Below are positions 13,124 to 45,253 of a stretch of DNA of 45,253 nt, piece by piece. Below the pieces are notes generated by a model. It did not search any database, was not told the origin of the DNA, and saw only the letters and a program-made list of their open reading frames with translations. Within the stretch, counting starts at the first letter, position 1, and the number at the start of each line of letters is the position of its first letter. A program made the position numbers and the translations under genes. Origin of the DNA: Candidatus Faecalibacterium gallistercoris (GTDB taxonomy: Bacteria > Bacillota > Clostridia > Oscillospirales > Ruminococcaceae); contig DXBJ01000057.1 of NCBI GenBank assembly GCA_019116585.1, positions 1 through 45,253 on the forward strand. The letters run 5' to 3'.

Positions 13124-13289
13124 TAGGGTGTATCTGAGAAGTCCAAAATGCTGAACAATTCGCCAAAAAGGTGCAGATGCAAGGCGCATGAGCGCTGCAC
13201 TCCTTTGTGGAATGCAAGCGAATGCAACGCAGCAGATGCGCCTTTTTGGTAGAATTGGACAGCGTTGGGGAGTTTTCGGATACACCCTA
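13124..13289. repeat. Interspersed repeat R1, copy 2 (166 bp, opposite orientation)
   Basis: Flanked by TA on both sides (TA-GGGTGTATC ... GATACACCC-TA). Reverse-complement match to copy 1 at 2163-2328, the same length to the base. The arms form a long imperfect stem. It lies between the DUF4364 stop codon and its terminator. A frame starting ATGAGCGC is open through both copies and encodes a similar short peptide (ANATQQM, LFGRI, QRWGVF), but the differences between copies are not biased to silent sites. Confidence 0.87.
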
Positions 13290-13290
13290 G

Positions 13291-13331
13291 GCCCCGTATG
13301 TACGCGCATGGCGTACAGACGGGGCTTTTTT
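13291..13331 (+). terminator. Terminator after DUF4364 and R1 copy 2
   Basis: GCCCCGT-TGTACGC paired with GCGTACA-ACGGGGC, then six T. It starts one base after the R1 end. Confidence 0.88.
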
Positions 13332-26893: not shown

Positions 26894-29158
26894 TCAGATG
26901 TCGCCGTCCGCGTGCATATCCACGGCCACGCTGGCCTTGGCGGGCAGTTTTTCCTGCTCGTACAGGCCCAGCACCTGCCCCAGCAGGGCGCGGAAGCGTT
27001 TGTCGTTGCGGCACTTGACGGTGAGCTTATAGCGATAGATCTCGTTGATCTTCAGGATGCTGCCGGGGGTGGGCCCCAGCACCCGCAGGGGGATGTCGGG
27101 CTGCCGGGCGGCCTGCTGTGCCAGCAGGGCGGCAAAGCGGGCGGCGGCGGCGGCGGTCTCCTCCTCCTTTTTGCCCGCAAAGCTGACGATGCACAGGCTG
27201 CAAAAGGGCGGGTACAGCCCCAGCTTGCGGTACTCGATCTCCTGGGCGAAAAAGGCGTCGTAGTCCTGGGCGGCCGCCAGGCGCAGGACGGGGTTGTCGG
27301 GGTCGGTGGTCTGGATGATGGCCCGCCCCGGCGCCGAGGCCCGGCCGCTGCGGCCCACCACCTGGGTCACCAGGCTGAACACCGTCTCATACGCCCGGAA
27401 CCCCTGGGCAAACAGAAGCGAGTCGATGCCCAGCACCCCCACCAGGGTCACGTCCTCAAAATCGAGGCCCTTGGCCACCATCTGGGTGCCCACCATGATG
27501 TCGTATTCGTGGCGGGCAAAGCCGGCCAGCAGCTTTTCGTGGGCGTCCTTGGCGGCGGTGGTGTCCTGGTCCATGCGCAGGATGCGGGCCTCCGGGAAGA
27601 GGGCGGCCAGCTCTTCTTCCGCCTTTTGGGTGCCGAAGCCCCGGTACTGCAGCTTGCCGCCGCAGGCGGGGCAGACCTCGGGCCGGGGGGCGATCTGGGC
27701 GCCGCAGTAATGGCACAGCAGCCGCCCGCCCCCGTCCTTGTGGTAGACCATGGGGACGCTGCACCGGGGGCACTTGAGCACCTCCCGGCAGTCCCCGCAC
27801 TGGGCCATGGTCTGGTAGCCCCGGCGGTTGAGCAGCAGGATGGCCTGCCGGCCCTCGGCCAGGTTGGCCCGCAGGGCGTCCTCCAGGGCCAGGCTGATCT
27901 CCCGGGGGTTGCCGGCGGCCAGCTCGGCCCGCATATCCACCATCTGGACGGCGGGCAGCGGCTGGCCGGCGTACCGCTGGGTCAGCCGCACCAGCTGGCA
28001 CCGCCCGGCCTGCGCCTCATAAAAGGTCTCGGTGCTGGGGGTGGCGCTGGCCAGCAGCAGCAGGGCCCCGTTTTTGGCGGCCCGCCAGCGGGCCACCTCC
28101 TGGGCCGCGTAGCGGGGCGACGACTCGGAGCGGTAGGTGTGCTCCTGCTCTTCGTCGATGACGATCAGGCCCAGCCCCTCCAGGGGGGCAAAGACGGCGC
28201 TGCGGGTGCCCACCACGATGTCCGCCCCGCCGTCCTGGATCATCTGCCATTGCAGCAGCCGCTCGGTGTGGTTGAGGGCGGAGTGCTGCACCGCCACCCG
28301 CCGGCCGAACCGTTCTTTCAGCCGGCGGATCATCTGGGGGGTCAGGCTGATCTCGGGCACCAGCACCAGGGCTTTTTTGCCCAGGGCCAGGCACCGCTCG
28401 ATCAGCTTGAGGAACACCAGGGTCTTGCCGCTGCCGGTGACGCCGTACAGCAGGGCGGCGTGGGGCCGGCCTGCCTCCAAATGGGGGGCCAGGGCGTCGA
28501 AGGCGGCCTGCTGCTCGGCGGTCAGCTCCAGGCGCTCGGTCCTGGGGGGGATGTGGGCGTAGAGGTCGATGGATTTGTTCACCCGCTCGGCCGCCAGCAC
28601 CCCCTTGGCGCAGAGGTTTTCTGCCACGGCCCGGCTGACCCCGTGGGCCTCCAGGTCGGCCTGGGTGCGGGGCCCCCCCGACAGCAGGGCCACCGCCGCC
28701 ATCTGCTTGGCGGTGGGCCGGGGCTTGGCGGGCAGCGGGGCGGCCAGGCGGTAGAGGGTCTCGGTGTGGCGGGTCAGCTGCTTTTGCAGCACCGGGGTCA
28801 CCCCGTCGGCGGCCAGGGCGGGCTTGTACTGGGCCCCGTAGGGGATCACCGCCCGCACCGCCTCGTACCAGGTGCAGAAGGTCCGCTCCTTGAGCAGGCG
28901 GACCAGCTCCAGCAGCTCGCCGGTCAGGCAGGCCGAGGCGGGGGCCACGTCGAAGAGGGCCTTCAGCCGGGCGCTTTCCGGCTCGGCGTCGCAGGCCAGC
29001 ACCACCCCCATCCGGGGGCGGCTGCTGCGCCCGAAGGGCACCAGCACCATGCTGCCCAGCCGCACCTGGTCCTGCTGGTCGGGCATGACCGCATAGGTAT
29101 ACAGTTTGTCGAAGTGGAAGGCCGCATGGCTGACCGCGACACCCACCGTTTTTGGCAT
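26894..29158 (-). CDS. priA: Primosomal replication helicase PriA
   Basis: Reloads the replisome at stalled forks. 754 residues. N-terminal DNA-binding domain (FDKLYTYAVM), Walker A GVTGSGKT, DEEQ-type Walker B (VIDEEQEHTYRSE), the zinc-binding cysteine array (CGDCREVLKCPRC, LLCHYCG, CPACGG), helicase motifs LLNRRGYQ, GTQMVAKGLDFEDVTLVG and QVVGRSGRA. ATG at 29158 follows AAAGGAG. In B. subtilis rpoZ and coaBC precede it; here a repeat (R2 copy A) fills that gap. Confidence 0.96.
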   Translation of the reverse strand: MPKTVGVAVSHAAFHFDKLYTYAVMPDQQDQVRLGSMVLVPFGRSSRPRMGVVLACDAEPESARLKALFDVAPASACLTGELLELVRLLKERTFCTWYEAVRAVIPYGAQYKPALAADGVTPVLQKQLTRHTETLYRLAAPLPAKPRPTAKQMAAVALLSGGPRTQADLEAHGVSRAVAENLCAKGVLAAERVNKSIDLYAHIPPRTERLELTAEQQAAFDALAPHLEAGRPHAALLYGVTGSGKTLVFLKLIERCLALGKKALVLVPEISLTPQMIRRLKERFGRRVAVQHSALNHTERLLQWQMIQDGGADIVVGTRSAVFAPLEGLGLIVIDEEQEHTYRSESSPRYAAQEVARWRAAKNGALLLLASATPSTETFYEAQAGRCQLVRLTQRYAGQPLPAVQMVDMRAELAAGNPREISLALEDALRANLAEGRQAILLLNRRGYQTMAQCGDCREVLKCPRCSVPMVYHKDGGGRLLCHYCGAQIAPRPEVCPACGGKLQYRGFGTQKAEEELAALFPEARILRMDQDTTAAKDAHEKLLAGFARHEYDIMVGTQMVAKGLDFEDVTLVGVLGIDSLLFAQGFRAYETVFSLVTQVVGRSGRASAPGRAIIQTTDPDNPVLRLAAAQDYDAFFAQEIEYRKLGLYPPFCSLCIVSFAGKKEEETAAAAARFAALLAQQAARQPDIPLRVLGPTPGSILKINEIYRYKLTVKCRNDKRFRALLGQVLGLYEQEKLPAKASVAVDMHADGDI

Positions 29159-29182: not shown

Positions 29183-29361
29183 CCAGGGGGGACCAATTTC
29201 TGCGCGCAGCCGCGCGACAGAAATTCTTTCCCCCTGGTATCCCCCTTTTGGACAAAATTTGTCGCCGAACCGCGCACTCGCCTGCGGCTCGCACACTCTC
29301 GACGCCAAATTTCCCTGTCGGTGTCCCATCCGTCCGCACATGTCGGCCGGATGGGACTTTT
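29183..29361 (+). repeat. Structured repeat R2, copy A
   Basis: Lies between gmk and priA, antisense to that operon. Three stems are visible in order: P2 CCAGGGGG/CCCCCTGG enclosing AATTTCTG/CAGAAATT; P3 AAATTTG...CAAATTT enclosing CGCGCACTCG...CTCGCACACTC; P4 GTCCCATCCG/CGGATGGGAC then TTTT. About 179 bases. In this orientation the terminator-like end does not face the gmk-to-priA transcript. Confidence 0.85.
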
Positions 29362-29370
29362 CGCAAAATG

Positions 29371-29940
29371 TTACGTTCTGTCCACTTTATGGGCCATCAG
29401 CCGGTACAGCTCGCCGGCCGCCTGCTCGAGGGTGTGGTTGACGATCCAGGCGTCGAACTCGCCGGCGTGGCCCAGCTCTTCCCGGGCGATGTCCAGCCGG
29501 CGGCGGATGGCCTCCTCGCTGTCGGTGCCGCGGCCCCGCAGCCGCTGCTCCAGCACCTCGAAGGTGGGCGGCAGCAAAAAGACGATGGTGGCGCCGGGGT
29601 ACAGCCGCTTGATGTTGGCCGCCCCGTGCACGTCGATGTTCAGCAGGGTGAGCTTGCCGGCGGCCATCCGGCGCTCCACCTCGGCCCGCAGGGTGCCGTA
29701 CAAATAGCCGTTGTAGCGGTTGCTCTCCAGGATCTGCCCCTGGGCGGCCAGCTGCCGGAACGCTTCCTCGGTGCGGTAATAGTAGTTGACCCCTTCGGCC
29801 TCCCCTGCCCGGGGGGGCCGGGTGGTGGCCGAGATGGTCTTTTCGATCTCGGGGTGGGCCTGCCGCAGGCAGGTCATCACGCTGTCCTTGCCGACGCCCG
29901 AGGGCCCCGACACCACAAACAGATAGCTTTCGCCTTTCAT
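29371..29940 (-). CDS. gmk: Guanylate kinase
   Basis: Phosphorylates GMP to GDP. 189 residues. P-loop VVSGPSGVGKDSV, GMP-binding TTRPPRAGEAEGVNYYY, and LNIDVHGAANIKRLYP, IVFLLPP. In the P-loop the residue after the Lys is Asp followed by Ser, a small variation on the usual GKGT/GKSS. ATG at 29940, one base after remA. Confidence 0.95.
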   Translation of the reverse strand: MKGESYLFVVSGPSGVGKDSVMTCLRQAHPEIEKTISATTRPPRAGEAEGVNYYYRTEEAFRQLAAQGQILESNRYNGYLYGTLRAEVERRMAAGKLTLLNIDVHGAANIKRLYPGATIVFLLPPTFEVLEQRLRGRGTDSEEAIRRRLDIAREELGHAGEFDAWIVNHTLEQAAGELYRLMAHKVDRT

Positions 29941-31279: not shown

Positions 31280-31310
31280 ACAAAAACCGGGCAGGTCTGT
31301 CCTGCCCGGC
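31280..31310 (-). terminator. Terminator hairpin, outer copy of a 25-base duplication
   Basis: On the minus strand CCGGGCAGG-ACAG-ACCTGCCCGG type stem followed by TTTTTGTTTT. The 25 bases 31286-31310 are identical to 31530-31554; R2 copy B lies between the two. Confidence 0.75.
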
Positions 31311-31320
31311 ACAAAGGGTC

Positions 31321-31527
31321 AAAAAAGTCCCGGCCGGACGACATGCGCGTACGGTCGGGACACCGACAGGGAAATTTGCCGCCGGGAGTGTGCGAGGCCG
31401 CAAGGCCGAGTGCGCGGTTCGGCGGCAAATTTTGTCCCCAGGGGGATATTAGGGGGAAGGAATTTCTGCCGCGCGACTGCGCGCAGAAATGGGTTCCCCC
31501 TAAAGCGTGCCGCAAAAGCGGCACGCC
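31321..31527 (-). repeat. Structured repeat R2, copy B (fullest copy)
   Basis: On the minus strand, in order: P1 GCGTGCCGC-TTTT-GCGGCACGC; P2 TTAGGGGG/CCCCCTAA enclosing ATTTCTGC/GCAGAAAT; P3 AAATTTGCCGCCG/CGGCGGCAAATTT, a perfect 13-bp stem with an inner GGCC-TTGC-GGCC hairpin; P4 GTCCCG-CCG/CGG-CGGGAC then TTTTTT. Compared with copies A and C many stem bases differ but pairing is kept. It follows the small gene at 31559 in the same orientation. Confidence 0.87.
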
Positions 31528-31529
31528 GG

Positions 31530-31554
31530 ACCGGGCAGGTCTGTCCTGCCCGGC
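31530..31554. repeat. Inner copy of the 25-base hairpin duplication
   Basis: ACCGGGCAGGTCTGTCCTGC plus CCGGC, identical to 31286-31310. It starts 5 bases after the stop codon of the small gene at 31559 but has no T-run, unlike the outer copy. Confidence 0.8.
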
Positions 31555-45051: not shown

Positions 45052-45087
45052 AAAAAGCAGCCTCTGCCCGTCAGCGGGCAGGGGCTG
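45052..45087 (-). terminator. Hairpin after copA with a T-run on the minus strand
   Basis: GCAGCC-CTGCCCG/CGGGCAG-GGCTG stem. Six T follow it only on the minus strand (45052-45057), so it best terminates a minus-strand transcript coming from the right; on the plus strand it is a hairpin without a T-run after copA. Confidence 0.6.
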
Positions 45088-45090
45088 TCA

Positions 45091-45253
45091 GCGTGTCGCA
45101 AAAGCGCCACGCTCCAGGGGGGACCCATTTCTGCCCGCATACGCGGGACAGAAATTCCTTCCCCCTGGTATCCCCCTGGGGACAAAATTTGGTGCTGAAC
45201 CGCGCACTCGCCGCAAGGCGGCTCGCACACTCTCAGCGCCAAATTTCCCTGTA
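45091..45253 (+). repeat. Structured repeat R2, copy C (cut by window end)
   Basis: P1 GCGTG-CGC-AAAA-GCG-CACGC; P2 CCAGGGGG/CCCCCTGG enclosing ATTTCTG/CAGAAAT and CCCGC/GCGGG; P3 AAATTTGGTGCTG/CAGCGCCAAATTT with an inner GCCGC-AAG-GCGGC hairpin. P4 lies beyond the window. It is oriented with copA and follows it. Confidence 0.85.

Follow-up and report, generated by a model that had tools for sequence, protein, structure and literature searches.

A dispersed folded repeat in Candidatus Faecalibacterium gallistercoris is very probably a non-autonomous mobile element with IS1182-type ends that inserts at terminator hairpins

The stretch of DNA analysed here (the window, 45,253 nucleotides, contig DXBJ01000057.1 of assembly GCA_019116585.1) contains three copies of a short repeat, R2, which an earlier note had read as a structured RNA or terminator module. 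Copy A lies between two minus-strand genes that we take, from their sequence and gene order, to be gmk and priA, so that their transcription would read the minus strand of the copy. Copy B is entire, and copy C runs into the end of the contig (Table 1). All three copies are found where the earlier note placed them, also by matches of a covariance model of helices P3 and P4, and the P2 and P4 stem letters that it quoted are present in the sequence. The proposed fixed order of stems, P1-P2-P3-P4, is borne out in part: P1 is present in copies B and C, but it is absent from copy A, and copy C is truncated inside P4. A further, weak match to the P3-P4 model at 13236-13325 of the window (21.5 bits) possibly arose by chance.

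Table 1 Positions of R2 copies, their parts and their neighbours in the window
Feature	Position	Strand	Remarks
priA (presumed)	26894-29158	-	
Copy A	29183..29361	+	Without P1, right end degenerate; between gmk and priA
Copy A, P2	29183..29237	+	
P3-P4 model match, copy A	29239-29357	+	
Copy A, P3	29255..29312	+	
Copy A, P4	29323..29357	+	With GC(A/G)CATGTC loop motif
gmk (presumed)	29371-29940	-	
Copy B, downstream duplicate of terminator hairpin	31286..31310	-	Followed by T-run (A at 31282-31286 on plus strand)
Copy B, entire element	31311..31529	-	Right end at 31311, P1 side at 31529
P3-P4 model match, copy B	31327-31448	-	
Copy B, P1 (left terminal hairpin)	31504..31526	-	
Copy B, upstream duplicate of terminator hairpin	31530..31554	-	Without T-run; 25/25 bases identical to downstream duplicate
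Terminator-like hairpin directly upstream of copy C	45057..45088	+	Other flank beyond the contig
Copy C, P1 to part of P4	45090..45253	+	P4 cut by contig end at 45253
Copy C, P1	45090-45113	+	
P3-P4 model match, copy C	45169-45253	+	

Aligned copies, read on the strand used by the earlier note (hereafter the plus strand), define a unit of approximately 180-220 bases, which is too short to hold a transposase. It opens with the P1 hairpin (AGCGTGTCGCAAAAGCGCCACGCT), continues through P2 with its variable inner stem, P3 and P4, the loop of which reads GC(A/G)CATGTC, and closes with TTTTTTGACAGTCTG. The stretch 29183-29361 does hold a copy, but the unit is longer than that, reaching from P1 through the shared ...TTTTTTGACAGTCTG end that is common to many copies. 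P1 is absent from some copies (copy A, L004, L007 and L016) and the right end from others. The left arm of P1 is an imperfect inverted repeat of the right end, a relationship that is clearer in relatives: named contigs have AGGCTGTCGAAAAA versus AGCTTGTCGAAAAAG, and further relatives have GAGCGTGTCGAAAAAGTC versus CAG(T/A)CTGT(C/A)GAAAAA. The ends in relatives follow the form AG..TGTCGAAAAA, and those of the source genome, AGCGTGTCGCAAAA and AGACTGTCAAAAAA, are a diverged form.

The interior varies as well. An additional structured module, roughly 100-130 bases long, is found in some copies, where it either replaces or lies inside P2 (GGTTGCGGT...CAGCTTCGCAG) or is set in the loop of P4 (CACTGCGCCCGCAGGCGCG...GGCCGGAGA, in L126 and L138), and similar modules stand at the same positions in different genera (L036 in contig C55 of the source genome, G000; L119 and L122 in G287; L105 and L126 in G220; L138 and L081/L086 in G054). 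Elements with R2 ends in genomes G153 and G059 (L349, L353, L362 and L363) have a different repeat inside them (CCTCCCTTGTCAAAGGGAGG...GGTGGTGGGATTC and variants). A second subfamily (L339 in G107, L344 in G187 and L357 in G083) combines R2 ends and the GC(A/G)CATGTC hairpin with otherwise different internal stems, and L339 and L357 have hairpin copies on both flanks.

R2 is a dispersed family. Within the source genome, a draft that is 93% complete in 81 contigs, BLAST with copy A gave 40 scored places from 97 first-look candidates, and a P3 motif pattern gave 65 matches compared with 0 for the reversed pattern. Of these 65 matches, 41 are close to a contig end (within approximately 175 bases) and the other 24 are internal, so that one copy may in some cases have given two matches; the true copy number is probably approximately 45 to 65. 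Of 396 genomes of the family, 18 have matches to the P3-P4 covariance model; these carriers fall in 8 of 126 genera and include 4 of the 7 genomes of the window's genus (source genome among them). At most nine candidates were scored per genome, and a few of the carriers have a single weak match. A pattern scan of named genomes matched at least 118 stretches. The 80 matches listed include several Candidatus Gemmiger species, Faecalibacterium sp. UBA1360, Anaerofilum sp. An201 and uncultured Clostridia, together with single, chance-like matches in unrelated taxa. Five viral contigs also have pattern matches, and a search of phage and plasmid records with a G187 copy as the sole query gave no match. 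No description of R2 was found in the titles and abstract openings of the literature searched.

The fold is well supported by covariation. A 216-base composite of source-genome copies has fold z scores of -8.93 and -10.75 on its two strands. For 14 sequences that we chose from 34 (11 from the source genome, one from G134 and two from G054), the covariation score is 0.399 compared with 0.020-0.067 for slid pairings, none of 500 shuffles scores as high, and changes on both sides occur in 17 of 30 pairs. The covarying fold is real, but, unlike what the earlier note had claimed, pairing is not fully kept at every base change: there is a T.G in P3 of copy C (GGTGCTG/CAGCGCC) and an A.C in P4 of copy B. 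In Rfam 15, the window at gathering score yielded one tRNA only and the R2 elements at a permissive threshold yielded only matches below gathering, in line with the earlier note, which had recognised no known RNA family. The lack of a match at gathering score rules out an Rfam family as the source of the fold.

Mispairs bear on which strand is folded. In the P3 and P4 stems of 75 copies from three same-genus genomes, A.C outnumbers G.U by 23 to 5 events on the plus strand (binomial p 0.0009), counted per pair, state and genome and not on a tree, and the corresponding directions in unpaired columns number 11 versus 15 (Fisher p 0.004 against 23:5). An A.C on the plus strand is a G.U on the opposite one, so for P3 and P4 these counts make the opposite strand the likelier folded one, be it as RNA or as single-stranded DNA. 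The earlier note had drawn the plus strand as folded; the P3 and P4 counts go against this, and P2 lacks that bias, with 24 G.U and 12 A.C events, the opposite of P3 and P4. P1 has 11 of each, and P4 with its tail pairs included has 12 G.U and 13 A.C, partly from misaligned rows. The structure used for counting was drawn from the composite, and the P1, P2 and tail columns include misaligned or truncated rows. The minus strand is also lower in energy in 96 of 97 copies that pass filters (five groups), which are related to one another, and single control segments have an s.d. of 9.5 kcal/mol.

Strong covariation, a loop motif common to several genera, the one-strand bias in P3 and P4 relative to unpaired columns and the greater stability of the minus strand are all what would be expected if R2 were maintained for the host as a structured noncoding RNA or as a regulatory element in 3'-UTRs, its dispersal being incidental. 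We nevertheless consider such a host function unlikely, given the patchy distribution over 18 of 396 family genomes, the varying gene orientation around copies, the opposite bias of P2 and the lack of bias in P1, as well as the empty orthologous sites and flank duplications described below. Conservation can, moreover, equally serve the mobility of the element itself.

Compensation could also have come about at the DNA level, through hairpin-templated (quasi-palindrome) mutation and recombination between copies, with no RNA under selection. The tip of P3 occurs in two exactly inverted forms in many source-genome copies (GCCGCAAGGC and GCCTTGCGGC), which points to a DNA-level inversion rather than stepwise compensation; copies combine the variants of P3 and P4 in different ways; Watson-Crick pairs dominate, without any G.U in the 14-sequence set; and the bias differs between helices. 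Such a process should not, however, favour A.C over G.U as seen in P3 and P4 but not in unpaired columns, and unpaired segments are also conserved across genera, so that we regard it as unlikely. The argument that double compensatory changes reveal selection on the fold must nevertheless be used with caution, given the inverted P3 tips.

The proposal of a terminator cassette formed by P4 and a T-run on the plus strand fits the source genome, in which P4 is directly followed by a T-run in most copies, and one G220 copy (L090) has P4 followed by CTTTTT. In other genera, copies with recognisable right ends mostly have P4 and the T-run approximately 10-55 bases apart, so the adjacency is mostly confined to the window's genus. 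The T-run complements the AAAAA of the terminal inverted repeat, which is also found on IS1182, and the excess of A.C over G.U in P3 and P4 is on the very strand that would have to fold. A terminator role for P4 is accordingly very unlikely.

The flanks of R2 point to mobility. Directly to the left of the element there is often the stem of a terminator-like hairpin, which continues into it without a break. Among the 24 source-genome copies with both flanks, four have left and right flanks that are more alike than the null maximum (L032, L030, L017 and L008, which is window copy B). In a wider set of 99 copies, from which matches with a core of <64 bases or cut flanks were excluded, 18 exceed all 1,206 mismatched flank pairs (null maximum 12.0); the exact 25-base duplication at window copy B is not counted among these 18, as a boundary error caused it to be missed. 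They come from G107 (5 of 5), G187 (3 of 3), G059 (2 of 2), G000 (5 of 29), G054 (1 of 6), G134 (1 of 4) and G287 (1 of 9). The remaining 81 copies have no flank duplication above the null, and none was found in the other ten genomes, including G236 (0 of 10), G220 (0 of 9), G318 (0 of 8) and G153 (0 of 6). The 18 duplications are 16-43 bases in aligned length, mostly whole hairpins, and range from exact to clearly diverged (L017 and L145). Named contigs add further cases, such as L190 and L206. By analogy with these copies, the hairpin at 45057..45088 is probably the target hairpin of copy C.

In 8 of the 18 duplications the downstream hairpin copy is directly followed by three or more T. Orientation relative to the terminator varies, as L096 has an A-run before the upstream copy. 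The upstream gene has the same strand as R2 in 67 of 126 entries and the opposite strand in 24, with no call in 35, according to a codon-position heuristic that is probably wrong for at least L003.

Orthologous sites without the element were also found. The gap between gmk and priA is short and lacks the element in all six same-genus genomes compared. At the site of copy B, upstream of a gene that is presumably yicC, G236 lacks the element and has a single terminator, next to the same upstream gene as in the window. Because other genomes have different neighbours at yicC, this empty site amounts to one comparison. G236 has another R2 copy (L118) beyond the gene upstream of yicC, and in G329, where yicC has another neighbouring gene, a degenerate element-like match (L107, 44.4 bits) stands upstream of yicC, so the region is not simply empty in all relatives. 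Given the empty orthologous sites, window copies A and B are best read as insertions.

The ISfinder entry for IS1182 gives a direct repeat of 0-60. To compare R2 with transposase-bearing elements, we searched 394 genomes of the order with the IS1182 protein of Bacillus pumilus, and 31 had a match at 1e-30. We analysed 21 loci, namely L377 and 20 of the 30 loci from this search; L384, L386, L387, L398 and L404-L409 were left out, the first three being the genes of G000, G236 and G287 already covered as L152-L154. A terminator-like hairpin of 27-39 bases stands on both flanks at 9 of the 21 loci (L377, L388-L392 and L394-L396), exactly repeated in eight and with two loop differences in L392. The ends of these nine are CAG..TGTCGAAAAA or close variants, like those of R2, and the end pattern seen in IS1182 loci is CAG.(C/T)TGT(C/A)(G/A)A.AA. 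L388 and L389 come from genomes of the family to which the window belongs, and L377, from Bacillus pumilus pBP-T2, has a 28-base hairpin exactly repeated, with a T-run on the downstream copy. One right end of R2, CAGACTGTCGAAAAA when read inwards (L096), is identical to an end of the L392 IS1182. L383 and L385 have such ends but hairpins that differ between flanks. At the remaining ten loci, the ends are of other kinds or were not recognised and direct repeats score no higher than 10, and two plasmid IS1182, L378 (Sinorhizobium) and L379 (Thioclava), have other ends and no shared hairpin.

R2 thus resembles IS1182 with CAG..TGTCGAAAAA ends (L388, L389 and L377) in its ends, its hairpin target and the duplication of the whole hairpin, and it shares the left terminal hairpin with L377 and several other IS1182. 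It differs in being only approximately 180-220 bases long, in lacking a transposase and in carrying the P2-P4 core. The P4 motif is absent from all 11 IS1182 loci checked for it, so that the core is no simple internal deletion of these. The ends and the duplication of R2 are thus those of one IS1182 subgroup, and its core is not shared with the copies checked. A SINE-like retro-element, in which a folded RNA is reverse transcribed into nicked terminators, would also offer a folded core with strand bias in P3 and P4, many copies and flank duplications of variable length; because R2 has its ends in common with transposase-bearing IS1182, at which the same duplications occur, no RNA step is needed, and we regard this reading as extremely improbable.

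Related behaviour has been described for IS1272 and TnSha1 of the IS1182 family. Like R2, they insert into hairpins, several of which are proven terminators, and TnSha1 was found by Furi et al. to target hairpins with partial deletion (PMC4923244). Some copies are directly 3' of genes, and Wan et al. drew three outcomes for IS1272-type ends attacking a cruciform (PMC5678879). Unlike at R2, the hairpin sequence at IS1272 is, in the accounts consulted, removed or replaced and no duplication is described. The pneumococcal BOX, RUP and SPRITE repeats are likewise short and dispersed, cluster and are inserted into one another (PMC10969869); they are set beside R2 by description only, and the sections consulted do not mention hairpin duplication.

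The IS1182 model NF033551 matched 10 of 20 genomes, four of them over the cut-off (G000, G236, G287 and G151), and gave no match in three same-genus genomes lacking R2. Seven of 17 carriers gave no IS1182 match at E 1e-5 (G054, G059, G083, G107, G220, G318 and G357), and two of these seven have fresh-looking copies. The source genome has two IS1182 genes with ends of another type (GGAGCTGTTGACAAA at L152 and GGACCTGTTGACAAA at L162), and a helper with R2-matching ends was not found in this draft (93% complete, 81 contigs). When four R2 ends were tried against L152-L154, only the G107 left end had its best match at the IS end in all three; the source-genome R2 end did not. End motifs spaced 700-2600 bases apart were also paired across 1,404,985 bases of loci, some of which overlap, and inspection by eye gave no convincing autonomous partner. 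Two scans of viral contigs found 19 and 23 stretches with IS1182-like end motifs, and tblastn with four IS1182 proteins gave no hit at 1e-6 in them.

The IS1182 copies L152-L154 have their GGAGCTGTTGACAAA ends inside inverted repeats, and their DNA identity of approximately 98-99.7% across three species of the genus suggests recent horizontal transfer. L153 (G236) and L154 (G287) also have 5-base direct repeats (GCTTC and GTTTT), which look like a duplication of the hairpin loop only.

Taken together, we consider it very probable that R2 is a non-autonomous mobile element (MITE) with IS1182-type ends that inserts at terminator hairpins. Of the roles that had been suggested for it, the mobile hairpin is the one borne out, by the flank duplications, the empty sites and the ends. 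The family is dispersed, with shared ends, flank duplications of variable length and empty sites, and transposase-bearing IS1182 has a like anatomy. Beyond these observations, we infer that R2 is mobilised in trans, that a cruciform is involved and that termination is preserved. An IS1182-type transposase would act in trans on R2, and the element ends would be joined at the two feet of the terminator palindrome, which is probably extruded as a cruciform. Gap repair would then copy the whole hairpin and leave R2 between two hairpin copies, the upstream one running directly into R2 and the downstream one retaining the T-run where one exists, which may leave termination of the host gene intact. 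P2-P3-P4 would be a conserved folded cargo inside the element.

As a tentative possibility, a separate folded cargo may have captured the IS1182-type ends. This cargo, a fold of bottom-strand RNA or of single-stranded DNA with the GC(A/G)CATGTC hairpin that is kept in several Clostridia genera, would aid its own spread, for example by engaging the transposase or the terminator hairpin. R2 would then be a structured nucleic acid that parasitises an insertion sequence.

Covariation in dispersed hairpins is not by itself proof of a host noncoding RNA, and a folded core common to several genera is a concrete and testable puzzle. R2 offers natural evidence for a pathway that was drawn only as a possibility for IS1182-type transposition (PMC5678879). 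By targeting the stop signals at gene ends and duplicating the hairpin, R2 plausibly leaves the host gene with a working terminator, which would be a low-cost route to tens of copies.
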